A stretch of 64,000 nucleotides of DNA from Cystobacter fuscus. GTDB lineage: Bacteria; Myxococcota; Myxococcia; Myxococcales; Myxococcaceae. The notes below the pieces were generated by a model, which saw only the letters and a program-made list of their open reading frames with translations, made no database searches and had not been told where the DNA came from. This document shows, piece by piece, positions 44,447 through 60,148 of the stretch (position 1 is its first letter; every line of letters starts with the position of its first letter). Location of the stretch: positions 6,014,001-6,078,000 of the forward strand of contig NZ_CP022098.1 of assembly GCF_002305875.1 (NCBI RefSeq). Direction: 5' to 3'. The position numbers and the translations under genes were made by a program.

Positions 44447-45150
44447 GAGGCGGCGCCTCGCGTGGCGAACATATAGCCCTTGCCACGGACGGTGAGGATG
44501 ACGCGGGGCTCCTCGGAGTCGTCCCGGAGCTTCTCCCTCAGGCGCGCCATGGTCATGTCCACCGTGCGCGTCTGCACGCCCCGGGGGGGCAGGTGCCAGA
44601 CCCGCTCCAGCAACTCCTCGCGGGAGATGGCGCGCCCCGCGTTGTCACCCAGGTAGCGCAGCGCGTCCGCCTCACGCTCGGACAGATCCACCCGCGAGCC
44701 GTCGTCGAAGCTCAGCTCGCGCCGCTCCACCTCGAAGTGCCCTCCCGGGAAGTCGATGCGGCCCGTCCCCATGGGCCGCTCGGCCGAGCGGCGGAGCACC
44801 GCGCCCGCCCGGGCCAGCAACTCCCGCACCGAGAAGGGCTTCACCACGTAGTCGTCGGCGCCGAGCTTCAGGCCGTTGACCCGGTCCTCTTCCTGACCCC
44901 GGGCGGTGAGGATGATGACGGGGAGGGTGGGGCGGCTCTTGCGCACCGCCCGGAGCAGCTCCAGCCCGTCTCCGTCGGGAAGGACCAGGTCCAGCAACAC
45001 CAGATCGCACGGGGTGCGCTCGGCCAGCCGCTGTCCCTCCACGCGGGCTCCGGCCTCGAGCACCTCATAGCCCTCGAAGCGCAGGGCATCCACGATTCCC
45101 CGCCGGATGGCGGGGTCATCCTCCACGACAAGCACTCGGCGCGCGGCCAT
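44443..45150 (-). CDS. OmpR/PhoB-family response regulator
   Basis: 235 residues. The receiver domain has the acidic pair Asp11-Asp12, the phospho-acceptor Asp54 (LVLLDLVLPDGDG), the Thr in ILTARGQ and the Lys in VVKPFSV. The C-terminal winged helix (about 135-228) shows DLSEREADALRYLGDNAGRA and RTVDMTMARLREKLRDD, the DNA-binding pattern of OmpR-type regulators. It is phosphorylated by the histidine kinase encoded immediately downstream with an ATGA overlap. Nine bases separate it from the upstream VWA gene, so the three form one operon. Confidence 0.93.
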   Translation of the reverse strand: MAARRVLVVEDDPAIRRGIVDALRFEGYEVLEAGARVEGQRLAERTPCDLVLLDLVLPDGDGLELLRAVRKSRPTLPVIILTARGQEEDRVNGLKLGADDYVVKPFSVRELLARAGAVLRRSAERPMGTGRIDFPGGHFEVERRELSFDDGSRVDLSEREADALRYLGDNAGRAISREELLERVWHLPPRGVQTRTVDMTMARLREKLRDDSEEPRVILTVRGKGYMFATRGAAS

Positions 45151-45159
45151 GACGGCATC

Positions 45160-46356
45160 CTACTCCAGCGTGAGGTGACGCTTCTTCGCCTCGCGCTCCA
45201 CGACCTGGCCGATGGCCCCATCCAGCGTGTCCGCCCCCGGAGCGGCCTGCTGCTCGCGCGCCTGGGCGAGGAACCGCTGGCGCTCGGCGTTGAGCGTCTG
45301 GATGCGCTGCTGGAGCTGTGTCCGCTCCTGCTCGCGCGCCTCCAGCCAGGCCTTGCGGCCGGCGGCGTCCAGCCCGCGCATCGGCTCCGGCAGGTCCTCG
45401 GCCCGGACGGACTTCACGTCCACCTGGTTCTTCTTCACCGCGTCCACCAGGTCCCAGCTCTCGTTCGAGTAGTTGCCGGACGACTTGGCCACGGAGCGGG
45501 ACACCATGCTGGCGATGGAGACGCCGCGCGAGTTGCTGTCCTGTTGCTCCTGGCGCAACTGGCTCTTCTTGCCGGCGGCGCCGTAGGCGACGTACGTCTT
45601 GTTCAGCTCCGCGCCCAGTTGGGCGATCTCCGCGTCCTGCGGCGCGGCGATCTCCACCACGCGCTGGTTCTGATCGATGTTCATGTAGCTGCCGTCGGCG
45701 AGCACCGCCGCGTCCTTCCACTTCCCGGCGACGCCCTCCTCGTAGTCGCCGCAGTGGATGGTGTTGACGGTGATGCCGCGCTCGCGGGCGCTCTTCACCG
45801 CGTTATCGAATTCGACGGGGCCCTGGGTGAAGGGCTCGTTGCCAGCGATGAAGATGAGCCGCATGGCGTCCGGATCCTTGCTCCAGGCGAGCTGCGTGGA
45901 GGCGTCGCGGATGACCTCTCCGCAGTACTCCTCGCCGCCGGACGTTCTCAAGGAGAAGAGGTGCTCGGAGAGCAGGTCCAGGTCCGTGGTGAAGGGCAGC
46001 ACCTGGCGGATCTCATGGGAGTTGGCGCCCGGGTCGGCGTTGCCGTACGCGTACAGGGCAATCTGGAGCTGCGGCGCCACGCCGTCGCGCTTCGCGTGGG
46101 AGAAGCGGTTGACGATGTTCCACAGCTGCGAGCGGGCCTGGTCGAGCAGGCCGTCCATGCTGCCGCTGGTGTCCAGCAGCAGGGCAATCTGGATGATGGG
46201 CTGATTCGCATCCGTCCTGGGGACGGGGGCCACGGTCGGCCTCACGGGTGGCGGCGCGGGCGGTGTACCCGGAGAGGGCTGGTCCAGCAGGAGAGCGGAG
46301 ACCGCGAGCACCGCGGCCGAGCCAAGGATGACGGGAAGCTTGAGTGCCGATTTCAT
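45160..46356 (-). CDS. Exported VWA-domain protein
   Basis: 398 residues with an N-terminal membrane/signal segment (LPVILGSAAVLAVSALLL) and a Pro-rich linker. The von Willebrand factor A domain (about 55-250) keeps the metal-ion site DTSGSM, with a later Thr and Asp for MIDAS. The C-terminal half is helical and charged (EAREQERTQLQQRIQTLNAE), probably coiled coil. VWA domains mediate metal-dependent protein contacts; here the protein is likely periplasmic and part of the sensing arm of the adjacent two-component system. AAAGGA before ATG 46356 fixes the start. A decayed fragment of a second copy lies at 58205-58572. Confidence 0.85.
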   Translation of the reverse strand: MKSALKLPVILGSAAVLAVSALLLDQPSPGTPPAPPPVRPTVAPVPRTDANQPIIQIALLLDTSGSMDGLLDQARSQLWNIVNRFSHAKRDGVAPQLQIALYAYGNADPGANSHEIRQVLPFTTDLDLLSEHLFSLRTSGGEEYCGEVIRDASTQLAWSKDPDAMRLIFIAGNEPFTQGPVEFDNAVKSARERGITVNTIHCGDYEEGVAGKWKDAAVLADGSYMNIDQNQRVVEIAAPQDAEIAQLGAELNKTYVAYGAAGKKSQLRQEQQDSNSRGVSIASMVSRSVAKSSGNYSNESWDLVDAVKKNQVDVKSVRAEDLPEPMRGLDAAGRKAWLEAREQERTQLQQRIQTLNAERQRFLAQAREQQAAPGADTLDGAIGQVVEREAKKRHLTLE

Positions 46357-46635
46357 CGTGCGTCCTTTCGTACGTCGGTGCCCGATTGAGCACGCGGAGA
46401 AGAGTACGAATGAGGGGCCTCGTCGGGTGTAACCGGCTTGTAACCGGAGGTGTCGGCGACTCCTCAAGGCGGTCGGCGCCGAGTCCATGAGCGAGTAGGC
46501 GCTGCGAGGTGTCGCGCATTCGGGGAACTGGTGAGGAGCAGCGGAGAGCATGGTAGATCGACCAGCGAGGACAATTGACTTGACCGCCCCATCTACCCAG
46601 CACCTTCGAGCTGTCTCTCCGGGGAGCCTACTCTA
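46357..46635. promoter_or_regulatory. Divergent region between VWA operon and hsdM
   Basis: 279 bases separate the divergent VWA and hsdM starts. They contain the promoters of both operons; a GGGGAG motif lies nine bases before the hsdM GTG. No other clear element is seen. Confidence 0.4.
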
Positions 46636-49143
46636 GTGGCCATCAAGAAATCCGAACTCTACTCCACACTCTGGAAGTCCTGCGACGAACTGCGCGGTGG
46701 CATGGATGCATCGCAGTACAAGGACTACGTCCTGGTGCTCTTGTTCGTGAAGTACGTCTCGGACAAGGCGGCCAGCCAGAAGAACTACGATCTCGACGTC
46801 CCCAAGGGCGGCAGCTTCGCCGACATGGTCGCGCTCAAGGGGGACAAAGAAATCGGCGACAAGATGAACAAGATCATCGCCAAGCTCGCCGAGGCAAACG
46901 ACCTGAAGGGCGTGATCGACGTCGCTGACTGGAACGACGCCGACAAGTTGGGCAAGGGGAAGGACATGGTGGATCGGCTATCGAAGCTGGTTGCCCTCTT
47001 CGACAACCCCGATCTTGACTTCAGGGGCAACCGCGCCGAGGGCGACGACCTGCTCGGAGATGCCTACGAGTACCTCATGCGGCACTTCGCCACCGAGAGT
47101 GGCAAGAGCAAGGGTCAGTTCTACACGCCGGCCGAGGTCTCTCGCATCATGGCCAAGGTCATCGGCGTCGGCAGCGCCAAGAGCCCCGGCCAAACCATCC
47201 ATGACCCCACCTGCGGCTCAGGCTCCCTCCTTATCAAGGCCCACGACGAGGCCAAGAGTGCCACCGGCCTCGACCTCGCGCTCTACGGCCAAGAGATGGA
47301 CAACGCCACTAAGGCGCTGGCTCGCATGAACCTCATCCTGCATGACTGCCCCACCGGCGAGATCTGGCAGGACAACACGCTGTCCGCGCCATACTTCAAG
47401 GATGCCAAGAGCAACGCCCTCAAAACCTTCGACTTCGTCGTCGCCAACCCCCCCTTTTCGACCAAAGCCTGGACCAACGGCTTTGACCCGGCCAACGACC
47501 TCTACGGCCGATTCGACTTCGGCGTCCCGCCGCAAAAGAACGGCGACTACGCCTTCCTCCTCCACATCTTCGCCTGTCTCAAGAGCACCGGGAAAGGCGC
47601 GGTGATTCTCCCGCACGGCGTGCTCTTCCGTGGTGGCGCTGAATCCACGATCCGTCGCAAGGTCGTCCAGCGCGGCTACATCAAGGGCATCATCGGTCTG
47701 CCGGCAAACCTCTTCTACGGCACTGGCATTCCCGCCTGCATCCTTGTGCTCGACAAAGAGGGCGCCGCCGACCGCAAGGGCATCTTCATGGTTGATGCCT
47801 CCAAGGGCTTCATAAAGGACGGCAACAAGAACCGCCTGCGAGCGCAGGATATCCACAAGATCGTCGATGCGTTCACCCGGCAACTCGAGCTCCCCCGCTA
47901 CTCGCGGATGGTCTCGCTCGCCGAGATCAGTGACTCGAAGAACGACTTCAACCTCAATATCCCGCGTTACATCGACTCAAGCGAGCCGGAGGACATCCAG
48001 GACATCGACGGCCACCTGCGCGGCGGAATCCCCGTCCGCGACCTCGATGCCCTCGACCGGTACTGGAAGGCCTTCCCGGGTGTGCGCGAGGCGCTGTTCA
48101 AGAAGGCCAGCCGTCCAGGCTATGCCGAACTCAAGGTCACAGCGGCAGACATCAAGACCACCATCTTCGGGCACACTGAGTTCACGGCCTGGAGCACCCA
48201 GAGCAAGAAGCTCTTCGCCAAGTGGCGGGCGGAGAGTGCGCCACGCTTGAGTGCCATCGCCAAGGGCGACAAGCCCAAGGTCCTCATCGACACGCTTTCT
48301 GAGGAACTCTTGGGCACCTTCCAAAAGGCCAAACTGCTCGACCCCTACGATGTCTACCAGCACCTCATGGACTACTGGGCTGAGGTCATGCAGGATGACG
48401 TCTACCTCATCGTCAGCGACGGTTGGAGCGAGGCTGCCAAGCCCCGGCCGATTGGCGACGACAAGGAAAAGAAGTCCAAAGATAAGCCGGACTTCATCAT
48501 CGGCAAGCAGAAGTTCAAAGCGGAGCTGATTCCGACCACCCTACTCATCGCTCGCCACTTTGCCGCCGAACAGGCGGCGATCGAAAAGCTGGTGTTGGAA
48601 GCTGCCGCCGTCGCGCAGGCGATGGAGGAACTGGCCGAGGAGCACGGCGGCGAAGACGGTCTCTTGGCAGAGGCAAAGAACGACAAGGACAAGCTTACTA
48701 AGGCCTCAGTGTCCGCTCGGCTTAAGGAAGTAAAAAGCGAGCCCGACACGGTTGATGAGCGCAAGGTGCTCGGCGACTACTTGGCGCTCATCGAGAAGGA
48801 GGCGGTCATCAACGCGACGGCCAAGGTGGCGCAGGAGGAACTTACCGCGAAGGTTGCAGCCAAGTACGGCAGGCTGACCGAGGACGACATCAAGATGCTC
48901 GTTGTCGAGGACAAGTGGCTGACCTCGCTTGAGGCATCTGTGCAGGTCGACTCGACAGAGTGTCACAGACGCTCACTGGCCGCATTCGTGAGCTTGCCGA
49001 ACGTTATGACACTCCGCTACCGACGCTCACGGCCGAACTCTCGATGCTTGCCGCTCGGGTGGATCAGCACGTCAAGAAGATGGGCGCAACATGGAACTGA
49101 AGCTTGGCTACAAGCAGACAGAGATGGGCGTCCTTCCGGCTGA
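46636..49143 (+). CDS. hsdM: Type I restriction-modification methyltransferase subunit (C-terminal frameshift)
   Basis: The 835-residue reading frame starts at GTG 46636. The N-terminal helical region (YSTLWKSCDELRGGMDASQY) leads to the N6-adenine methylase core with FYTPAEVSRIMAKVIG, motif I DPTCGSGSLLI (about 191-201) and motif IV NPPFS (about 272), so the catalytic part is intact. Near 48946 the frame shifts: one extra G after GTGCAG would restore an HsdM-like tail (RIRELAERYDTPLPTLTAEL and so on) ending TGA at 49100, which overlaps hsdS in the usual way. As written, the last 60-odd residues are foreign and read through hsdS. This is a real 1-nt deletion or a sequencing error. It modifies the sites read by HsdS. 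Confidence 0.85.
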   Translation: MAIKKSELYSTLWKSCDELRGGMDASQYKDYVLVLLFVKYVSDKAASQKNYDLDVPKGGSFADMVALKGDKEIGDKMNKIIAKLAEANDLKGVIDVADWNDADKLGKGKDMVDRLSKLVALFDNPDLDFRGNRAEGDDLLGDAYEYLMRHFATESGKSKGQFYTPAEVSRIMAKVIGVGSAKSPGQTIHDPTCGSGSLLIKAHDEAKSATGLDLALYGQEMDNATKALARMNLILHDCPTGEIWQDNTLSAPYFKDAKSNALKTFDFVVANPPFSTKAWTNGFDPANDLYGRFDFGVPPQKNGDYAFLLHIFACLKSTGKGAVILPHGVLFRGGAESTIRRKVVQRGYIKGIIGLPANLFYGTGIPACILVLDKEGAADRKGIFMVDASKGFIKDGNKNRLRAQDIHKIVDAFTRQLELPRYSRMVSLAEISDSKNDFNLNIPRYIDSSEPEDIQDIDGHLRGGIPVRDLDALDRYWKAFPGVREALFKKASRPGYAELKVTAADIKTTIFGHTEFTAWSTQSKKLFAKWRAESAPRLSAIAKGDKPKVLIDTLSEELLGTFQKAKLLDPYDVYQHLMDYWAEVMQDDVYLIVSDGWSEAAKPRPIGDDKEKKSKDKPDFIIGKQKFKAELIPTTLLIARHFAAEQAAIEKLVLEAAAVAQAMEELAEEHGGEDGLLAEAKNDKDKLTKASVSARLKEVKSEPDTVDERKVLGDYLALIEKEAVINATAKVAQEELTAKVAAKYGRLTEDDIKMLVVEDKWLTSLEASVQVDSTECHRRSLAAFVSLPNVMTLRYRRSRPNSRCLPLGWISTSRRWAQHGTEAWLQADRDGRPSG

Positions 49144-50341
49144 CTGGGAGGCTCGACCGCTTGGCGACTACGTGCGCTTCAGGACCGGACCGTTCGGTAG
49201 CGCACTGCACAAGTCGGACTACACGCATGACGGCGTTCCAGTGATCAACCCAATGCATATAGTGGACGGCAACCTATCGCCCACCGAGAGTATGACGGTC
49301 ACCGAATCTGCCGCCCGCGCACTCGCAGATTTTCGTGTTCGCGAGAACGACATCCTTATCGGCCGACGTGGCGACATGGGGAGATGTGCCGTTGTGAAAG
49401 CAGGTCAAGCCGGCTGGCTGTGCGGCACCGGCTCGATGATTGTGCGATGTGGGGAGGGGATTGCTCCGTCGTTCCTGCAGCGGGTGCTATCGAGTTCAAG
49501 AGCTATTGCTGCAATCGAGAGCGCGTCCGTAGGTTCGACAATGATCAACCTGAATCAGGGCACACTCTCTGCGCTCCTAGTTCAGATTCCGCCGCTGCCG
49601 GAGCAGCGGGCCATCGCGGCGGCACTGAGCGATGTGGATGCACTGATCGGCGCGTTGGACCGGCTCATCGCGAAGAAGCGTAACCTCAAGCATGCGTCCA
49701 TGCAGAAACTCCTCACCGGCCAGACTCGCCTGCCTGGGTTCGGTGGCAAATGGGAAATGGTGCGCGCTGGAGATATCGGGCGCTTTAAGGGAGGCAGCGG
49801 CTTTCCTACGAGAGCCCAAGGGGCGGCAGCAGGCGACTACCCGTTTTTCAAAGTCTCTGACATGAACCATGCGGGGAACGGTGTGTTCATGATCCAGTCG
49901 AACAACTGGATCTCCGAAGGTGTCAGAAAGCAGCTCGGTGCCACTGTGTTTCCGACAGGCAGCGTTGTATTTGCAAAGGTAGGGGCGGCAGTCTTCCTGG
50001 AAAGAAAGAAGCTCCTCGCGAAGTCGAGCTGTCTTGACAACAACATGGCCGCGTTCATTGTTCAACGCGACCGTCTTGAGCCGCGCTTCGCTCACCTTGC
50101 ATTTCTGCACACCAAACTCGGTGATTTGGTGAGCACGACCGCGCTCCCATCCCTGAGCGGCTCGGTGCTGGCGCAGATCCCGCTGCAAATCCCTCCAATC
50201 GATGAGCAGATAGCCATCATCAACGTGGTCTCGGATATGGACGCCGAACTCCGCGCACTTGAGAGACGTCGTGACAAGACCCATGCCCTTAAGCAAGGAA
50301 TGATGCAGGAACTCCTGACAGGAAGGACGCGACTCGTATGA
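49091..50341 (+). CDS. hsdS: Type I restriction-modification specificity subunit
   Basis: 416 residues with the two-fold layout of HsdS. TRD1 (about 14-160) opens VLPADWEARPLGDYVRFRTG. The central conserved helix follows (IPPLPEQRAIAAALSDVDAL, then KKRNLKHASMQKLLTGQTRL). TRD2 (about 215-360) and a second conserved helix (IPPIDEQIAIINVVSDMDAE, then QGMMQELLTGRTRLV) complete it. Each TRD reads one half of a bipartite site, which cannot be deduced. GC content is visibly lower than in neighbouring genes, as usual for exchangeable HsdS genes. The ATG lies inside the ancestral hsdM 3' end. Confidence 0.9.
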   Translation: MELKLGYKQTEMGVLPADWEARPLGDYVRFRTGPFGSALHKSDYTHDGVPVINPMHIVDGNLSPTESMTVTESAARALADFRVRENDILIGRRGDMGRCAVVKAGQAGWLCGTGSMIVRCGEGIAPSFLQRVLSSSRAIAAIESASVGSTMINLNQGTLSALLVQIPPLPEQRAIAAALSDVDALIGALDRLIAKKRNLKHASMQKLLTGQTRLPGFGGKWEMVRAGDIGRFKGGSGFPTRAQGAAAGDYPFFKVSDMNHAGNGVFMIQSNNWISEGVRKQLGATVFPTGSVVFAKVGAAVFLERKKLLAKSSCLDNNMAAFIVQRDRLEPRFAHLAFLHTKLGDLVSTTALPSLSGSVLAQIPLQIPPIDEQIAIINVVSDMDAELRALERRRDKTHALKQGMMQELLTGRTRLV

Positions 50342-53300
50342 GCACCATCGGTCAGGCCGAAAAGAAGACCCAGCGCCGCGTCGTCAAGCTCTTTGTTGAT
50401 GAATTGAAGTACGAGTACCTCGGCGACCTGAGTGAGGGCGATAACCGCAACATTATCGAGGGGCAACTCGAGCACTTTCTCCGAGTCTATCAGGGCTATG
50501 GCGAGCGTGAGGACGGCGACGACGTCATGCGCCGCGCCATCGCTGAGGTCGTCAAGGCCGCCGGAAACACAGGCGTGAGCCTCTACGACCGCAACCGCGA
50601 CGTCTACGCTCTCCTGCGCTACGGCGTGAAGATCAAGGCTGACGTCGGGGCGCAGTTCGAGACGGTGTGGCTCCTTGACTGGAAGAACCCCGAGAAGAAT
50701 CGCTTCGCCATCGCTGAGGAGGTCACGGTCAAGCCGGCCGATCCCAAGGCGCACGGCAAGAGGCCAGACATCGTCCTCTACGTCAACGGTATCGTGCTTG
50801 GCGTCCTCGAACTCAAGCGCTCTACGGTCTCAGTGGCCGAGGGCATCCGCCAGAACCTCGACAACCAGAAGAAGGACTTCATCCAGCCCTTCTTCTCGAC
50901 CATGCAATACGTCATGGCCGGTAACGATGCCGAGGGGCTGCGCTACGGCACCATTCAAACGCCCGAGAAATACTACCTGACCTGGAAGGAAAACCCTCCA
51001 CCCGGGCACGATGCGGACAACCTGCTCGACCGAGCGCTGCGGCAGCTCTGCGGCAAGAGGCGGTTCCTCGAACTCATCCACGACTTCGTGGTCTTTGACG
51101 CGGGCATCAAGAAGCTTTGCCGCCACAATCAGTACTTCGGTGTGCGGGCCGCTCAGGAACACGTCCGGCGCCGCGAGGGTGGCATCCTGTGGCACACGCA
51201 GGGCAGCGGCAAGAGCCTCACCATGGTGTGGCTCGCCAAGTGGATCCGCGAGAACGTCCAGGACTCCCGCGTCCTCATCATCACCGACCGAACCGAACTC
51301 GACGAGCAGATCGAGAAGGTCTTCAAGGGCGTTGCCGAGGATATCCACCGCACCAAATCAGGCGGCGACCTCATCGCGCAGCTCAACGCCACCGCGCCTT
51401 GGCTCCTGTGCTCCCTCATCCACAAGTTCGGTGGCAAGGAAGACGGTGAGGAGGTCGGGGACATCAAGGGCTACGTCGAGGAGTTGAAGAAGGCCCTGCC
51501 CAAGGACTTCCGGGCCAAGGGCGAGCTGTTCGTTTTCGTGGACGAGTGCCACCGGACCCAGTCGGGCGACCTCCACGAGGCGATGACGAGAATCTTGCCT
51601 GGCGCTGTGTTCATTGGCTTCACCGGGACGCCGCTCCTCAAGGCCGACAAGAAGAAGAGCATCGAGATCTTCGGCCGCTACATTCACACCTACAAGTTCG
51701 ATGAGGCGGTGAAGGATGGCGTTGTACTCGACCTCCGCTACGAGGCCCGCGACATCGACCAGAGCATCACGTCATCGAAGAAGATCGATCAGTGGTTCGA
51801 GGCTAAGACCAAGGGGCTCACACCACTGGCCAAGGCCCAGCTCAAGGCGCGCTGGGGGACTATGCAGAAGGTCCTGTCGAGCCAGTCACGCCTCCAGAGG
51901 ATCGTGGCTGACATCATGTTCGACATGGAGACCCGGGACCGCCTGAAGAGCGGGCGCGGCAACGCGATGCTGGTCGCGGGCAGCATCTACGAGGCGTGCA
52001 AGTTCTACGAGCTTTTCGCCAAGACACCGCTGGTGGGCAAGTGCGCCATCGTCACTTCGTACGTGCCACGGACGGCCGACATCAAGGGCCAGGAGAGCGG
52101 CGAGGGAGCGACGGACGCGCTCGAGAAGTACGCTATCTACCGTCAGATGCTTGCTGATTGGTTCGGTGAGCTGCCTGAGCAGGCCGTCGGCAAGATCGAC
52201 GCTTTCGAGAAGGCGGTGAAGAAGAAGTTCATCGACGAGCCGGGGCAGGTGAAGCTCCTGATCGTCGTTGACAAGCTCCTGACCGGCTTCGACGCGCCTC
52301 CGGCTACGTATCTCTACATCGATAAGCACATGCGCGACCACGGCCTGTTTCAGGCCATCTGTCGTGTGAATCGGCTTGACGGCGACGACAAGGAGTTCGG
52401 CTACATCGTCGACTATAAAGACCTGTTCAAGAGCCTTGAGGGGGCGGTCACGGACTACACCTCCGGAGCTCTCGATGGCTACGACAAGGAGGACGTCGCC
52501 GGGCTACTCGAGGACCGCCTCAGCAAGGCAAAGGAACGGCTGGAGGAGGCTCTTGAGGCCGTGCGCGCGCTGTGCGAGCCCGTCGAGGCGCCTCGCGACG
52601 ATCAGGCGTTCTATCGCTACTTTTCCTCAAAGGAGCATGGCAATACGGCCCAGCTCAAGGAGAATGAGCCGCAGCGCCTCGCGCTGTATAAACTCACGGC
52701 GGCGCTCGTTCGCGCGTATGCGAACCTGGCGGGTGAGATGACCGCGGCGGGCTATACCGAAGCCGAGGCCGCGTCGATCAAGAAGGATGTGACGTTCTAT
52801 GAAAACCTCCGTACGCAGATAAAGCTGCACAGTGGTGACGCAATCGACCTGAAGCAGTACGAACCTGCGATGCGCCACCTCATCGATACATACATCCATG
52901 CGGAGGAGAGCGAGACGGTCTCCGAGTTTGACGATTTGTCGCTGGTACAACTCATCGTCGAGCGCGGCGCGGAAGCAGTGAATGCGCTGCCCGAGGCCAT
53001 TCGCAAGAAGGAGAAGGCTGCTGCGGAAACGATCGAGAACAACGTACGGAGGCTCATCACCGACGAGTCGCCGATCAATCCGAAGTACTACGAGAAGATG
53101 TCTGAGTTGCTCGACTCACTGATCGAGCAACGCAAGAAGAACGCTCTCAGTTACCAAGAATATTTGGAGAAGATTGTCGATCTGACCCGGCAAGCGAAGA
53201 ACGGTCCGACAGTAGGGGGCTATCCGAAGTCGCTGGACTCGGCCGCTAAGAGAGCGCTGTATGACAACCTCGGGAACGACGAGGCTCTTGCTCTTAAGGT

Positions 53301-53454
53301 GGACGGCGCGGTTCGGTCGAGCATGCAGGATGGATGGCGCAGCAACACGATGAAAACGCGCAGGGTCCGGCAGGCCATCAGAGCAGCCTTCGACGGTGAT
53401 GAAGATCTCGTCGATCGAATCTTGGAACTGGTGAAGAGCCAGAATGACTATTGA
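50338..53454 (+). CDS. hsdR: Type I restriction endonuclease subunit
   Basis: 1038 residues. The N-terminal PD-(D/E)xK nuclease motif is RPDIVLYVNGIVLGVLELK (about 143-162). The SF2 helicase motor follows with Walker A HTQGSGKSLTMVW (about 285), motif II DECHRTQSGD (about 402), motif III FTGTPL and a late VDKLLTGFDAP and CRVNRL. A long helical C-terminal region binds the HsdM2HsdS core. It translocates unmodified DNA and cleaves at a distance. The ATG overlaps the hsdS stop as ATGA, and its own 3' end overlaps the following metalloprotease gene by 11 bases, so all four genes form one operon. Confidence 0.93.
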   Translation: MSTIGQAEKKTQRRVVKLFVDELKYEYLGDLSEGDNRNIIEGQLEHFLRVYQGYGEREDGDDVMRRAIAEVVKAAGNTGVSLYDRNRDVYALLRYGVKIKADVGAQFETVWLLDWKNPEKNRFAIAEEVTVKPADPKAHGKRPDIVLYVNGIVLGVLELKRSTVSVAEGIRQNLDNQKKDFIQPFFSTMQYVMAGNDAEGLRYGTIQTPEKYYLTWKENPPPGHDADNLLDRALRQLCGKRRFLELIHDFVVFDAGIKKLCRHNQYFGVRAAQEHVRRREGGILWHTQGSGKSLTMVWLAKWIRENVQDSRVLIITDRTELDEQIEKVFKGVAEDIHRTKSGGDLIAQLNATAPWLLCSLIHKFGGKEDGEEVGDIKGYVEELKKALPKDFRAKGELFVFVDECHRTQSGDLHEAMTRILPGAVFIGFTGTPLLKADKKKSIEIFGRYIHTYKFDEAVKDGVVLDLRYEARDIDQSITSSKKIDQWFEAKTKGLTPLAKAQLKARWGTMQKVLSSQSRLQRIVADIMFDMETRDRLKSGRGNAMLVAGSIYEACKFYELFAKTPLVGKCAIVTSYVPRTADIKGQESGEGATDALEKYAIYRQMLADWFGELPEQAVGKIDAFEKAVKKKFIDEPGQVKLLIVVDKLLTGFDAPPATYLYIDKHMRDHGLFQAICRVNRLDGDDKEFGYIVDYKDLFKSLEGAVTDYTSGALDGYDKEDVAGLLEDRLSKAKERLEEALEAVRALCEPVEAPRDDQAFYRYFSSKEHGNTAQLKENEPQRLALYKLTAALVRAYANLAGEMTAAGYTEAEAASIKKDVTFYENLRTQIKLHSGDAIDLKQYEPAMRHLIDTYIHAEESETVSEFDDLSLVQLIVERGAEAVNALPEAIRKKEKAAAETIENNVRRLITDESPINPKYYEKMSELLDSLIEQRKKNALSYQEYLEKIVDLTRQAKNGPTVGGYPKSLDSAAKRALYDNLGNDEALALKVDGAVRSSMQDGWRSNTMKTRRVRQAIRAAFDGDEDLVDRILELVKSQNDY

Positions 53455-54193
53455 GACCCATACCCTGACCGTCAGCGGCGTGCGTGTGGCCGTTGTCCGG
53501 AAGGCGATCAAGAACCTTCATCTCGGCGTCTACCCACCTGATGGGCGAGTTCGGGTGGCGGCGCCGTTAGCGGTATCCGACGCAGCCGTGAGGGTCGCGG
53601 TCATCAGCAAGCTGCCGTGGATCAAGCGACAGCAAGCGGCGTTCGAGCATCAGCCCCGCGAGTCCGAACGCGAAATGGTCAGCGGGGAGAGCCACTACTT
53701 CCTCGGTCGACGCTATCGCTTGGATGTCGTGGACGCCATGGGGGCCAACAGAGTCGTGCTCCGCAATCGTAGGACCCTCGAGCTTCACGTACAGCGCGGA
53801 GCCGACGCCGAGTATCGCAAGCAGCTTCTGTATCGCTGGTACCGCGAGCGCCTTCGCGAGCTCGTCCCGCCTCTCCTTGAGAAGTGGGAGGCCGCGATTG
53901 GCGTGAAGGTCGCCGGGTGGGGCATCAAGAAGATGAAGACCAAATGGGGCTCATGCAACGCGGAGGCACGCCGCCTCTGGTTGAACCTGGAGCTAGCGAA
54001 GAAGCCACCGGAATGCATTGAGTACCTCATCATTCACGAGTTGGTGCATCTTCTTGTGCGTCATCACGACGATCGTTTCAACGCCTTGATGGACCGTCAC
54101 CTGCCCAAATGGAGGCTGGTCCGGCAGTCGTTGAACGTGGCCCCCCTGGCGAATGACGCCTGGGAGCTAAAGGACAGCGGCGCACGGCACTGA
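53444..54193 (+). CDS. YgjP-like M48-family metalloprotease
   Basis: 249 residues with the metzincin-like zinc motif HELVHLLVRHHDDRF (His at about 198) and the conserved GWGIKKMKTKWGSCNAEARR upstream, typical of the YgjP/DUF45 proteins. It is a soluble putative peptidase. Genes of this family are recurrently appended to type I restriction operons, as here with an 11-base overlap with hsdR. A role in controlling turnover of HsdR or of the complex has been suggested for associated proteases (ClpXP-like control is known in E. coli), but for this family it is inference. Confidence 0.85.
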   Translation: MTIETHTLTVSGVRVAVVRKAIKNLHLGVYPPDGRVRVAAPLAVSDAAVRVAVISKLPWIKRQQAAFEHQPRESEREMVSGESHYFLGRRYRLDVVDAMGANRVVLRNRRTLELHVQRGADAEYRKQLLYRWYRERLRELVPPLLEKWEAAIGVKVAGWGIKKMKTKWGSCNAEARRLWLNLELAKKPPECIEYLIIHELVHLLVRHHDDRFNALMDRHLPKWRLVRQSLNVAPLANDAWELKDSGARH

Positions 54194-54246
54194 GCTGGCG
54201 GCGCTCTTCCACTCGCTGACTGATAACGGATTTCAGTTGAATGTTC

Positions 54247-54622
54247 CTATATATTATATCCGCAATACCGAAACCAGCCGACGATGTCGTCATGAGTGAT
54301 GAGGTCCATGGCCCTGGCAATGGCGTCATCGAGAGCCTGTAGGGTACGCGCGCCCATGCTCTTGAGCAGTTCCTTGAGCTTGTTCCAGAGCAGTTCAATG
54401 GGATTGAGGTCCGGCGAGTAGGGTGGAAGGAAGAGAACATGGGCACCGGCGGCGCGAATACGCTCCAGGATGTGCGCGGGCTTGTGCGCCCCCACATTGT
54501 CCATGACCACAATGTCGCCCGGATTGAGTTTGGGGACGAGCATGTGCTCGACAAAGGCCTCGAAGACACCGGCCGTCGTGGCTCCTTCGATAGTCATCAG
54601 CGCCCGAATGCCGTCCAGAGCC
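54247..54622 (-). pseudogene. C-terminal part of the IS630 transposase
   Basis: Encodes EGIAQ-junction residues then ALALDGIRALMTIEG, the second DDE Asp in VVMDNVGAHKP and the final Glu in PPYSPDLNPIELLWNKLKE, ending at a TAG inside the left terminal repeat. Joined to the segment at 57557-58130 across one copy of AGTGCGCC it forms an uninterrupted IS630 DDE domain. It is separated from its start by the nested IS4 element. Confidence 0.85.
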
Positions 54623-54643
54623 AGTGCGCCCTGAGCTATCCCC

Positions 54644-54976
54644 TCATATTGGGCCGAGAAATTCCTGAAAAACTGGTTGTTCACGTAACAGCGAAGCGAA
54701 TCGCTCCATCAGCGGGACGAGCTGCTCCTCCGGCATCATCGGGATGGCTTGGTAATACTCACAGCCCTGCCGGAAGAGCGAGGAGGTGCGCGTCTTCACT
54801 GTGTTGGCTTTGAGGTAACGCTCCATCCCCAAGCTCTCCCCCGCCGCCCCCAGCAGCGTCAGCAATGCGCAGGCTAGCGCGCTCACCAACAGCAGCCGGT
54901 CCCGCCTCTCCGTCGAGCGGACCCTCACCGACGACAGGCCCATTCCAAAACGCAAGTCCTTCATGTCGCGGAATGT
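54644..54976 (-). pseudogene. C-terminal part of the IS4 transposase
   Basis: Begins at the right of the ISL3 target duplication with FRDMKDLRFGMGLSSV and continues through LLLVSALACALLTLLGAAGE to a stop at 54644. It matches the C-terminus of the IS4 transposase at 56636-57480; the two join in frame when the ISL3 element and one 8-bp duplication are removed. Confidence 0.85.
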
Positions 54977-55256
54977 GGGTCTTCGGTACGTCGAGTGGGC
55001 AGGACTGTCGACAAGAGGCCGTGCGCATGGGGAGGACATGGGGCTCAAGGGCGTGCGGAGCCGAGCGATGGCCATGGGATTCAAGTCCCCGCGAGAGTTC
55101 GAGGCATGAATGAGACAGGGGCACGACCTGGGGTGCCGAAAGCCGCAGCTGTGCATGACAGAGCGCCTGGCTCCGCTGCCCTACTGGCCGGGTTGCAGTC
55201 GAATCTGTCGGCGCTGCGGGGCTCGGTCCCCAGCCGCCTGCTTCTACGGCGAGGGG

Positions 55257-56576
55257 CTACGCCGCTACTGGCAACGGCGGAGTGAACTCCATGCCCCCGC
55301 AGCACAGCAGTATCATCGCCCTGAATGCCTTGGGATTGCGGAAGCCATAGGCGCGGCGGCTGAGGGCTCGAATCTTGTTGTTGATTCCCTCCACCACTCC
55401 GTTGCTCAGTCCCGTCTCCACGTAGGCGAGAATGCCGTCCTTGTGCCGCTGGACTGTCTTCGCCAGCTTCGCGAAGGGGGCGAGCCTGGAGTGGCTGGCC
55501 CATTGACACCACTTGTCCAGGTGCTCCGAGGCTCGCTTGGGCTGCACGTAGTCCATGCCCCGTGCCAGGCTTTCCTTGAGCAGATAGGCCCGGTAGAGCG
55601 TCTGGTTCGTCTTCTTCAACTCGCTGAGCTTCTCTCCCTGGCGCACCGTCAGGTTCCACGGATTCTTCAGCAACGCCCAGCGGCTCTGTTTGAGCGCCTT
55701 TCCCTCCTGGCTCCCCGCCTGCTCGCGCACCTCTTGCCGGCGCACCGTATCCAGCGCTTCGTTCGCCAGCTTCTGCACGTGGAACCGGTCGAACACCTTG
55801 CGCACATGTGGGGCACGGTTGCCCACCGCCTTGCTGAAGGCCGCCGACAGGTCCATCGTCGCGTGCGTCAACTCCTTCGTCCTCTCCTCTCCCAGCTCGT
55901 CGAAGAAGGCGTCCAGGGTCTCTTCGTTCTTCCCCTCTCCCACCCAGACGACTCGCGAGCGCAGGTGGTCCACCACCAGGCTCACGTACTTGTGCCCGGC
56001 TTTCCAGCCCAGCTCGTCCACTCCAATGATTTGCAACCCCTCCAGGCGGCCTGGCGACAGGCGCTCCTCGACAATGCGCTCGATGATGGTGCCCACCGTG
56101 CGCCAGTTGATGCCCAGCAGCCGGCAGATGGAGGACTTGTCCAGGCGTTGCGCCTGCCAGGCCACCAGCTCCTCGAAGGCCCGCGTGAAGCTCGAGTCGT
56201 GCGCCGCCCAGGCCACCCGCTCCACTCTCACCCCATGCTCGCGGCAGTGCACACGGCGCGGGGCGTAATGCAGCCAGAAGATGGTTTGTCCCAGCGCCAG
56301 GTGCCGCCACAACCGCCCAGGGCTCGCGTCGTAGCCGGGGGCGGGCCGGCCGCACACTCCGCAGCGAGGCTTGCGCTGTGCGTGCACCGGAGCATGTGGA
56401 ACACCGATTCCGGGGGAAGTGGAACACTGATTCCGGAGCAAGTGGAACGCCCATTCCGGCCATGTGGAACACCGATTCCGGGGTTGTGGAACGCACCCCG
56501 GGGGCGGCACGTATTGCAACTCCGCGACCTGGTCTCTTCCCAGAGCGACAGCCTCTATCGGCTTCTCGCTCCCCAT
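55257..56576 (-). CDS. ISL3-family transposase
   Basis: 439 residues. The zinc-ribbon region RKPRCGVCGRPAPGYD is followed by the HTH-like DKSSICRLLGINWRTVGTII and the DDE domain: IIGVDELGWKAGHKY (Asp), ATMDLSAAFSKAV (Asp) and the late SNGVVEGINNKIRALSRRAY (Glu). All three catalytic positions are present. The first 65 residues are unusual: about residues 28-60 are encoded by a 22-23 bp tandem repeat and read as CST/VPQ/NR-type repeats instead of the usual N-terminus, so the protein may be impaired. ATG assigned; an alternative start closer to the zinc ribbon is possible. Confidence 0.85.
   Translation of the reverse strand: MGSEKPIEAVALGRDQVAELQYVPPPGCVPQPRNRCSTWPEWAFHLLRNQCSTSPGIGVPHAPVHAQRKPRCGVCGRPAPGYDASPGRLWRHLALGQTIFWLHYAPRRVHCREHGVRVERVAWAAHDSSFTRAFEELVAWQAQRLDKSSICRLLGINWRTVGTIIERIVEERLSPGRLEGLQIIGVDELGWKAGHKYVSLVVDHLRSRVVWVGEGKNEETLDAFFDELGEERTKELTHATMDLSAAFSKAVGNRAPHVRKVFDRFHVQKLANEALDTVRRQEVREQAGSQEGKALKQSRWALLKNPWNLTVRQGEKLSELKKTNQTLYRAYLLKESLARGMDYVQPKRASEHLDKWCQWASHSRLAPFAKLAKTVQRHKDGILAYVETGLSNGVVEGINNKIRALSRRAYGFRNPKAFRAMILLCCGGMEFTPPLPVAA
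56396..56508. repeat. Five tandem 22-23 bp repeats inside the ISL3 transposase gene
   Basis: GTGGAAC starts at 56396, 56419, 56442, 56464 and 56486, each unit reading GTGGAACACCGATTCCGG or a close variant, the last one degenerate. Such repeated GTGGAAC/TTCCGG units resemble transposase-binding sites at the ends of IS21-family elements, so this could be a trapped element end; that is inference. Confidence 0.65.
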
Positions 56577-56635
56577 CTCTCATTGGAGACCCTCCCGTCC
56601 ACGGCGGGAACGCCCATTTCGGCTACAGAAGATCC

Positions 56636-57480
56636 CGGAATGTTTCCTCCGTTCGAAACCTCTTGCCATACAGCCCCACCACGAAGGCCGCCGTCGCTTC
56701 TTTCAAGCTCGTCGCCAGGCACCACGCCTCCTTCATTCCCTTCTGCTTCACGCACACCACTGCCCCCACGGGTGCTTCGTCCTGGGTGACTCGCGCTCCC
56801 ACCAGGCGCACCGCCCGGCCCGATTCGGGCACCCACTCCCCCGCGCTCTTCTTCTCTCCCGTCTCATCCATCACTTGAATGCACTGACGGAAGCGCACCA
56901 CGTAGTCAAACTTCAGTTGCTCGAGCAGCGCATAGAACTTCTGGTCTCCAAAGCCCCGGTCGGCCAGTAGTGTGAGCCGCACCCGCTCGGGCACCACCTG
57001 CCGCAGTCGATTGAGCACGAAGTCCTCGACTTCATTGCGCATCCCCTCCAAGGCGGACTTCTCCACCGTGAGCCAGACCAGGGGCGTCGTGCGTCCATGG
57101 CTCGCCACCAACGACGCCACCAGCGTTGTCTGCCCATCCGCATCGAAGTCCGTCCAGTCCAGCGCCACCAGCGCCTCGCTTCTCTGTCCCAAGGCAAAGG
57201 GCACCCACTGTGCGAACAGCTCCCAGACATCAATCCCTTGGTTGGACAAGAGCCGGTCCACCTGCTTCACCCCATGCTTGCTCTTGGTGCCTCGGGCCCA
57301 CGCCAGGGCCTTGCCAATGAGATGAACACCCAGGCTGGCGGCGTGAATGACACCCAGGACCGCGTAGGCCAGGGACAACACGCGCTTGGCGTGCAGGTCT
57401 TCTTCGAAGAGGGCTTCCAGAAAGGTATGCACCTGCTGGTCATCAAGGCGAGGCTTACGCATGACTGCGGAAGTAAGCAT
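56636..57480 (-). pseudogene. N-terminal part of the IS4 transposase
   Basis: Encodes about 281 residues beginning MLTSAVMRKPRLDDQ, with the first catalytic Asp in VALDWTDFDADGQ, the second in LTLLADRGFGDQKF, and ending in the region FRTEETFRD that carries the catalytic Glu. The frame runs directly into the ISL3 element and stops 13 bases later at 56623. Joined to 54644-54976 it gives a complete IS4 transposase of roughly 390 residues. Confidence 0.88.
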
Positions 57481-57556
57481 GCGGGTCCTACTTCTCGCAC
57501 TACTCGGCCTACGCGGCGCTCCCTTGCTCGCCTGTTAAAATGAGGGGATGGCTCAG

Positions 57557-58130
57557 AGTGCGCCCAGTACGGTGGTGACGACGCCGCGATTCCTGGGGAC
57601 GTACCCCACCACGCGCTCGCCTCGGGGAGCACGTCCGCGAGTGCGCGTCATGCTCGTGTGACAGCCGGTTTCGTCGAGGAAGACGAACCGTCGCGGGTCG
57701 AGCAGGAGCATCAGCAGGAGGAAGACACGCCGCAGTGCCTGAATCCGAGGGGAGCGCTGCTCCGAAGCTACGAGCGACTTTTTTTGAGCCCCAGTCCCTG
57801 GCGTCGCAGTGCCCGCCAGACCGCCGAGGAACTGGTATGCACTTCTGTTCGGGCCACCAACGCGTCGAAGTGCTCCCGCACCGTGGCATCGGGTTGTGTA
57901 CGTACCTGGCCATCAAGCGCTTCCAGCACCTCCCCCCGGATGGCCGAGAAGTTGCCTCCGCCCCTTGGCCGTGGCTCCAGGCTCCCCGTTTCGTCCTCGA
58001 GCGTCAGCCAATGAGAAAGTGTCTTGGTGCATACACTGAATTCAGCGGCCACCTCCTCCAGGGTTCTGCCACCACGTCTATAGGCCGCCACTGCGCGCTC
58101 ACGCAAGTCCACCGAATAGGGCCGGGGCAT
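57557..58130 (-). pseudogene. N-terminal part of the IS630 transposase with slippery frameshift
   Basis: The first frame (58130 to 57768) encodes an HTH domain (VDLRERAVAAYRRGGRTLEE, AAEFSVCTKTLSHWL) ending GLGLKKSRS. A run of seven A on the minus strand near 57780 lets the ribosome slip into the frame KKSLVASEQRSPRIQ, which carries the first catalytic Asp in RRFVFLDETGCH. Such slippery runs are common in IS630. The frame is cut at 57557 by the IS4 insertion. Confidence 0.85.
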
Positions 58131-58204
58131 GACTCCTCCTCCAGCCCCAATAGGTCAATTTTGACCGGAACATTCAACTGAAATCCGTTATGAGACGGCG
58201 TAGT

Positions 58205-58572
58205 GGACGACCTTCAGTCGCGTCCGCTCCTGCTCGTGCACCTCCAGCCACGCCTTGTGGTCGGCGGCGTCTAGCCCACACATCGGCTCCGGCAGGTTCT
58301 TGGCCGGGACGGACGCCACGTCCACTTGGTGTTGCTCCAGGCGAGCTGCATGGAGGCGTCGCGCATGACCTCTCCACAGTACTCGTCGCCGCCGGACGTT
58401 CTCAGGGAGAAGAGGTGCGCGGAGAGCAGGTCCAGGTCCGTGGTGAAGAGCAGCACTTGGCGGATCTCGCTGGATTTGGCACGCGGGTCGACGTTGCCGT
58501 ACGCGTACAGGGCAATCTGGATCTGCGGCCCCACGCCGTCGCGCTTCGCGTGGGAGAATCAGTTGACGATGT
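58205..58572 (-). pseudogene. Decayed fragment of a second VWA gene
   Basis: Closely similar to the intact VWA gene at 45160-46356, for example QIALYAYGNVDPRAKSSEIR and LFSLRTSGGDEYCGEVMRDA. About 450 bases of the central part are missing: AWSN runs straight into the KSV/NLPEPM region in another frame. No start remains; the similarity ends abruptly at 58572. It lies 16 bases beyond the IS630 end and on the same strand as the intact copy. Confidence 0.85.
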
Positions 58573-58583
58573 CTCCTTGAGAT

Positions 58584-58599
58584 AGAGAGCGTACTCTCT
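58584..58599. promoter_or_regulatory. Dyad upstream of the GH43 genes
   Basis: AGAGAG-CGTA-CTCTCT is a perfect inverted repeat 164 bases before the first GH43 start, in the gap between the VWA remnant and that gene. It could be an operator of the arabinan genes, or part of the remnant boundary. Confidence 0.35.
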
Positions 58600-58762
58600 C
58601 GAACATTGATGCAATGCGTTGTACAGACCCCGTGACGCGGCGGCCATAAAATGTGAATTCAATGTCTTGACCGTACACCCAAGAAAGAGTTCACATAGGT
58701 ATGACCGTGGCTGTTGATGTCCAGCGAGCGGTCCCTTCCCCGACACCGCAGGAGTCTTATTC

Positions 58763-60148
58763 ATGCCCCAGACGAGAGCAACGATCGATTCGATGCGTCC
58801 CGAAATGTTAACGCTCACATACGAGGCCGCTTCCGAGCCGGCCCGGGTCCAGAGAGAGGGGCTCAGCTCCACCTTCCTGGGGCCCAGCGCGCTGGCCCTG
58901 GCGGTGCTCACGCTCCTGCCGGCCCCGGCCTCCGCCGCCACCCCGGTGTACACCATGACCGCGTTCACGAACTCGAGTGAATCGAACATGTACGTGTACC
59001 AGTCCTATGACGGCACCCATTACGGATTGATGAAGGGGCCCGCCTATACACCTCCGTCGGGATTGATCCGCGACCCCAGCCTCCTCCGACATACGGACGG
59101 GGTGTACTACGTGACGTACACCACGAACTGGGACGGCAACACGATTGGTTTCGCCAAGAGCACCGATCGCGTGAACTGGACCTTCATGCAGAATGTCACG
59201 CTTCCGACGGCGAACCTGCAGAACACCTGGGCGCCCGAGTGGTTCAAGGACAGCGACGGCAGTATCAACATCATCGTCTCGCTGCGCACCACGGGCACCA
59301 GCAACTTCACCCCTCATGTCATCAAGGCGCTCAACACCTCACTGACCGCCTGGTCCAGCCCCGTGCCCCTGTCGGGCCTGGGGCCCAACTACATCGACAC
59401 GTTCATCGTCAAGCTGGGCAGCACCTACCATGCGTTCACCAAGAACGAGACGAGCAAGTACATCGAGTACGCGACGGCTTCCAGCTTGACCGGACCCTAC
59501 ACCTTCAAGGGCACCGGGGATTGGGCGGGCTGGGGCAACTGGGTGGAAGGTCCGGCCCTGATCCAGTTGGACAATGGCTCCTGGCGGATCCTCTTCGACG
59601 GATACTCGTCCGGGAAGTACTACTACAGCGAATCGGCCAACACCTTCGCCTCCTGGTCGGCCAAGAAGGAGCTCCCCTCGCTCACGGGCTTCGTCCGGCA
59701 CCTGACCGTGCTGAAGGAGCCGGGACAGGCCGGTGACATCCGGCGCCTCCAGTCCTTCAACTTCCCGGACCGTTACGCCCGCCATTACAACTATCAAGCC
59801 CGCATCGATCCGAACGTGTCTCCGGTCGAGGACTCACGCTTCCGCATCGTTCCTGGACTGGCCGATGGCAGCAGCGCCGTCTCGTTCGAGTCGGTCAACC
59901 TTCCCGGCTACTTCCTCAAACACAGCAACTACGTGCTGGTCCTGGCGCGCGATGATGGCACGGACCAGTTCAAGCAGGACGCCACCTTCCGGGATGTCGC
60001 GGGCCTGGCGAACCCGGCCTGGACGTCCTACCAGTCGTACAACGTTCCGGGTTCCTACATCCGTCACTACGACTACACGCTTCGCATCGATCCCATCAAC
60101 AGCTCGACCGGGCAGTCGGACGCGACGTTCAAGGAAGTCAGTCCGTGA
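58763..60148 (+). CDS. Secreted GH43 glycosidase with AbfB arabinose-binding domain
   Basis: 461 residues. An atypically long N-terminus precedes the secretion signal (LALAVLTLLPAPASA, cut near 59). The five-bladed GH43 propeller (about 62-325) has LIRDPSLLRHTDGVYYVTYT (catalytic Asp region) and WAPEWFKDSDGSINII, with a later NWVEGPALIQ. The C-terminal AbfB/CBM42 domain (about 335-461) has repeated ...FPDRYARHYNYQARI / LPGYFLKHSNYVL / VPGSYIRHYDYTLRI blades that bind arabinofuranose. It probably releases arabinose from arabinan or arabinoxylan outside the cell. AGGAG eight bases before the ATG supports the start. Confidence 0.88.
   Translation: MPQTRATIDSMRPEMLTLTYEAASEPARVQREGLSSTFLGPSALALAVLTLLPAPASAATPVYTMTAFTNSSESNMYVYQSYDGTHYGLMKGPAYTPPSGLIRDPSLLRHTDGVYYVTYTTNWDGNTIGFAKSTDRVNWTFMQNVTLPTANLQNTWAPEWFKDSDGSINIIVSLRTTGTSNFTPHVIKALNTSLTAWSSPVPLSGLGPNYIDTFIVKLGSTYHAFTKNETSKYIEYATASSLTGPYTFKGTGDWAGWGNWVEGPALIQLDNGSWRILFDGYSSGKYYYSESANTFASWSAKKELPSLTGFVRHLTVLKEPGQAGDIRRLQSFNFPDRYARHYNYQARIDPNVSPVEDSRFRIVPGLADGSSAVSFESVNLPGYFLKHSNYVLVLARDDGTDQFKQDATFRDVAGLANPAWTSYQSYNVPGSYIRHYDYTLRIDPINSSTGQSDATFKEVSP

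Follow-up and report, generated by a model that had tools for sequence, protein, structure and literature searches.

The hsdM gene of a type I restriction-modification operon in Cystobacter fuscus, as sequenced, is broken by one base, a commonplace form of damage to a gene. The gene lies in a window of 64,000 nucleotides (G000:C1:6014001-6078000) from a genome assembled as a single contig of 12,349,744 bases. The reading we prefer, with a probability of roughly 60%, is that the deletion is real and recent, and that the tail-less product would fail to assemble into the M2S trimer, leaving an r-m- null system. A literature search for papers pairing "Cystobacter fuscus" with "restriction-modification" returned none. 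When methylation or barriers to transformation are predicted for this strain, the system is best regarded as probably inactive; an HSDR_N domain was detected in no other system of the genome.

The hsdM reading frame and its displaced tail

The hsdM ORF (46636-49143) encodes 835 amino acids, including the N6-adenine methyltransferase domain PF02384 (E 2e-99) and the HsdM_N domain PF12161. Beyond these domains, the body continues into a long C-terminal extension, mostly helical. Downstream of it the gene is one base shorter than its homologues (an example of homologous DNA at this site, from locus L035, is GTGCAGGGCGAACTGGACCG). Shifted back by one base, the reading frame has no stop between a TGA at 48930 and the TGA at 49098-49100, before which it encodes RLDRVSQTLTGRIRELAERYDTPLPTLTAELSMLAARVDQHVKKMGATWN. 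This TGA overlaps the start of hsdS, its last base being base 10 of that gene. Coordinates of the features are given in the table.

Table. Features of the hsdMSR operon, in positions of the window
Feature	Coordinates	Strand	Evidence
hsdM body	46636..48945	+	Pfam HsdM_N and N6_Mtase; PADLOC MTase_I; in frame with homologues
Frame-change interval	48945..48951	+	homologue DNA at site; column statistics
Conserved HsdM C-terminal tail, unread frame	48951..49100	+	homologue tails; dN/dS like that of the body
Out-of-frame tail as read	48946..49143	+	matches 0 of 75 homologue tails; low block pLDDT
hsdS, 416 aa, two Methylase_S stretches, apparently intact	49091..50341	+	PF01420; PADLOC; homologue coverage
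hsdR, 1038 aa, apparently intact	50338..53454	+	Pfam HSDR_N, SWI2_SNF2; PADLOC REase_I
YgjP-like metallopeptidase gene, overlapping the hsdR end	53444..54193	+	Pfam PF01863

A scan of species genomes for HsdM relatives yielded 567 loci, of which the best 80 were kept; their best segments are 62-88% identical to the HsdM body. When these 80 are read past the end of the match, most finish in a tail of the unread type. The formal tail test covered 75 usable loci. Set aside were L050 (an ORF of 748 aa with a different ending), L051 and L082 (at contig ends), L081 (whose tail is interrupted by a stop codon) and L094 (read from the start of the match, its ORF is broken at 626 aa, the tail itself being readable). 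The 50-residue unread tail matches all 75 usable tails at BLASTP E<1e-5 (best 7e-28), and the 64 tested residues of the in-frame tail match none of them even at E<10. In a whole-genome search of 98 relatives, 53 of which gave some match, the alignments of the two best ended at query residues 773 and 774. Similarly, the best PADLOC MTase_I model extends no further than HsdM residue 775, which leaves 45 of its 810 positions unused. No close HsdM homologue was found in the three genomes of the same genus (33-35% identity or no match).

Thus the frameshift in the hsdM tail, as described in the first-pass annotation, is confirmed: a single base is lost near the 3' end, the restored frame gives an HsdM-type tail ending at the TGA over hsdS, the last 60-odd residues as read are unrelated to the family, and the ORF overruns the hsdS start by 53 bases. 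The annotation also suggested a comparison with homologous hsdM genes, and none of the 75 usable ones has the lesion or ends in the shifted tail. Since the tail of the HsdM family is out of frame, the operon is filed as a broken type I member.

The base had been placed near 48946, which is the right vicinity, and a site a few bases further on is more parsimonious. The residue preceding LDRVS is Glu in 49 of the 50 aligned homologues, and the residue one further upstream is variable. The loss is more probably to be sought in the conserved Glu codon (48949-48950), ahead of the Leu codon at 48951, because the Glu is conserved and the residue before it is free.

Two of the loci set aside come from metagenome-assembled genomes and contain apparently broken hsdM genes, L081:4001-6400 with a stop codon within the conserved tail and L094:4001-6310 with its frame broken further upstream, at 626 aa; either may be an error.

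Mutation or sequencing error

The lost tail contains six invariant and 12 nearly invariant columns in an alignment of 50 homologues. The unread tail of the window retains five of the six and 11 of the 12, the misses being an L-to-V change at an otherwise invariant position and the Glu codon struck by the indel. Its dN/dS is 0.09-0.17, compared to 0.11-0.15 for the body (six comparisons). Judged by these substitutions, the unread tail shows no sign of relaxed selection or further decay, which leaves two readings of the lesion, a very recent mutation or an error in sequencing.

The second possibility, a residual consensus error, would mean that the strain has an intact hsdM and a functional type I operon of the usual sort. 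Raw errors of PacBio RSII reads are mostly indels, the remainder of the operon appears intact, and an undecayed tail is what an error would leave, although a recent mutation would look alike. On the other hand, there is no run longer than GG at the site; elsewhere in hsdM and hsdS runs reach seven bases at most, in a C run at 47448 that is in frame. The genome, taken to be that of C. fuscus DSM 52655, was assembled from PacBio reads at 62x coverage, and Illumina reads together with Pilon served afterwards to close it, as outlined in PMC5658505, where Pilon is mentioned in connection with contig closing and thus perhaps not with a full polish.

Frame switches were counted against G003, a syntenic relative with long pieces 92-98% identical. 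Of 400 genes predicted in 600 kb of G003, 225 (139+86) had 80% or more of their length covered by matches of at least 85% identity, 311 kb in total, and one of these switches frame in the window genome. In the reverse comparison, with 226 genes (140+86) likewise selected from 476 predicted in the window genome, there is again one switch. Because 30 residues are required either side of a switch, shifts near gene ends escape the test; hsdM itself is outside the set, and such counts cannot separate error from mutation at a single site. A looser run (first region; genes of at least 120 aa, 80% identity) gave two switches each way; all four are near a gene end, and three of them, where the piece is only 80-83% identical, were dropped under the stricter limits. 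An error-ridden assembly can be rejected, as switches are equally rare in both genomes. The sole switch among the 225 genes is in L183, at about G000:C1:5686800.

Given the combination of PacBio, Illumina and Pilon and the rarity of frame switches, a genuine mutation is favoured, short of proof, and we consider it quite probable, a consensus error being correspondingly unlikely.

Role of the lost tail and state of the system

Structures were predicted from 50 and 51 sequences, namely 50 of the 75 usable homologues. In the AlphaFold model of the intact HsdM of Pyxidicoccus fallax (L034, 50 sequences) the C-terminus forms helices 748-791 and 794-814, with block pLDDT of 71-90 from residue 771. 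The frame change falls at approximately residue 770, in the middle of the long helix. In the model of the window HsdM block pLDDT from residue 771 is 42-63, although a tail lacking homologues would be modelled with low confidence in any case. Most of the shifted tail is nevertheless drawn as helix (to 796; 806-829), at low confidence.

The best structural match of the HsdM body is PacII M1 (Z 41.7, 428 residues, rmsd 2.7). The fold matches span mostly HsdM residues 1-451, and that to PacII M1 stops short of the tail. In PacII the C-terminal tails of the M subunits form a four-helix bundle with the coiled coil of S, and deletion of the tails of M1 and M2 abolishes M1M2S assembly, according to the relevant sections of PMC9613975. 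The same source describes two different M subunits in PacII, unlike the system considered here. Moreover, the C-terminal extension of the window HsdM is much longer than that of PacII M and is barely covered by the fold matches. The tails are equated by analogy, from position and helicity only.

The following scheme would account for these observations. A single base was lost recently from hsdM of a probably horizontally acquired type I operon. The product would retain the catalytic domain and lose half of the last long helix together with the final helix, by analogy with PacII the portion packing on the HsdS coiled coil. From the tail-deletion result in PacII, M2S assembly should then fail, and neither methylation nor restriction would take place. 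The output of HsdS may fall as well through reduced translation of hsdS, because translation no longer ends at the hsdM/hsdS overlap. Silencing of HsdM is likely, as what has been lost is a pair of helices resembling the tail by which M is joined to S in PacII. Thus the silencing of the modification subunit suggested at first pass appears probable, as a conserved tail has been replaced; the suggestion that it might phase-vary is taken up below.

The first-pass annotation also warned of consequences for a host that keeps an intact hsdR. Type I systems bind DNA as an M2S trimer, and R makes its contact with this core through M, as stated in PMC3874165. Since R acts through M, loss of M should abolish restriction too, and danger from the intact hsdR is unlikely.

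Natural alleles of a comparable kind are described for Mycobacterium tuberculosis, where small deletions (hsdM DEL900-909, mamB DELG2543) silence methyltransferases, as seen from the methylome data reported in the portion of PMC7591249 that deals with them. In the C. fuscus case, in contrast, silencing is a prediction. In the long-HsdM group this operon is a natural test of the requirement for the HsdM tail.

The altered HsdM might still work, fully or weakly, by residual binding or occasional ribosomal slippage. The frame change leaves the catalytic domain and the greater part of the extension untouched, and the new tail is modelled as a helix, if a poorly supported one. However, the lost tail is strongly conserved, and its presumed counterpart in PacII is indispensable for assembly in the experiments cited above. 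As for slippage, no slippery heptamer was found between 48895 and 48975, and RNA folding downstream of the site is no better than in shuffled sequences (z 0.31; 117 of 200 shuffles as good). We regard residual function as improbable. Still less probable is a dormant system in which a tail-less HsdM is made and folded yet kept off HsdS, with HsdS and HsdR both persisting; the other components all appear intact, and reversion of the one base could restore it.

Reversible phase variation of hsdM hardly merits consideration, even though phase-variable type I systems are known. Phase-variable methyltransferases would be expected to have a simple sequence repeat where the shift occurs, or else copies of hsdS that recombine, and neither is seen. 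Tandem Repeats Finder reported two repeats in 46300-54400 (at 51033 and 54361), none of them inside hsdM or hsdS; there are no inverted repeats within hsdS, the only one found being inside hsdM, with arms of 17 nt about 1 kb apart. With only GG runs and no slippery heptamer at the site, and with the shift absent from all 75 usable homologues, phase variation is rejected. Programmed -1 frameshifting joining the HsdM body to the tail is the least credible of all and is likewise rejected: although the -1 frame preserves the tail, the expected heptamer with a stimulatory structure, shared by homologues, is lacking, and the 75 usable homologues read the tail with no shift.

The operon and its surroundings

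The operon resembles long-HsdM type I systems (PADLOC MTase_I PDLC03027 / REase_I PDLC03044) in the gene order hsdM-hsdS-hsdR and in domain content. The overlap of the hsdM stop with the hsdS start also recurs in a number of the 80 homologue loci. It differs from the 75 usable homologues in the out-of-frame tail of hsdM.

HsdS contains two target-recognition domains (PF01420 in two stretches), and among the best 80 of 567 loci hsdS is matched in 67, in 53 of which at least 90% aligns in one piece. HsdR combines a nuclease with a SWI2/SNF2 motor (PF04313, PF18766) and covers positions 1-1032 of the 1034 in PADLOC REase_I. Matches to hsdR were observed in 37 of the same 80 loci, none with 90% coverage; at least six of these matches run up to the end of the locus sequence.

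A profile search of the whole genome for HSDR_N found no second such gene. The Methylase_S search gave the two domains of the operon hsdS and one weaker match near 239 kb. Beside the latter, on the minus strand at G000:C1:237282-239112, there is a second, distant HsdM-like gene (33% identity), with which no HSDR_N was detected.

The GC content of the operon is 58-60%, compared to 65-68% in the measured adjoining stretches. In G003 a match to 44968-46463 is followed by 57 bases and then by a match to 58565-58820. These 57 bases stand in place of 46464-58564, a region of 12.1 kb with hsdMSR and several insertion sequences. The region is probably a horizontally acquired island; alternatively, it was lost in G003.

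Several minor features were observed in and around this region. Parts of the VWA gene (45320-46118) are found again beyond the island, at 58222-58572, with 85-92% identity. Pfam domains on the minus strand of 54247-58130 indicate nested insertion sequences: an IS630-like transposase is apparently split into a DDE_3 part (54247-54684) and an HTH part (57768-58130), and between the halves there are an ISL3 transposase (55257-56576) and a DDE_Tnp_1 transposase (56623-57480). Finally, 69 bases in the start region of a GH43/AbfB gene (58821-58889) are missing in G003.
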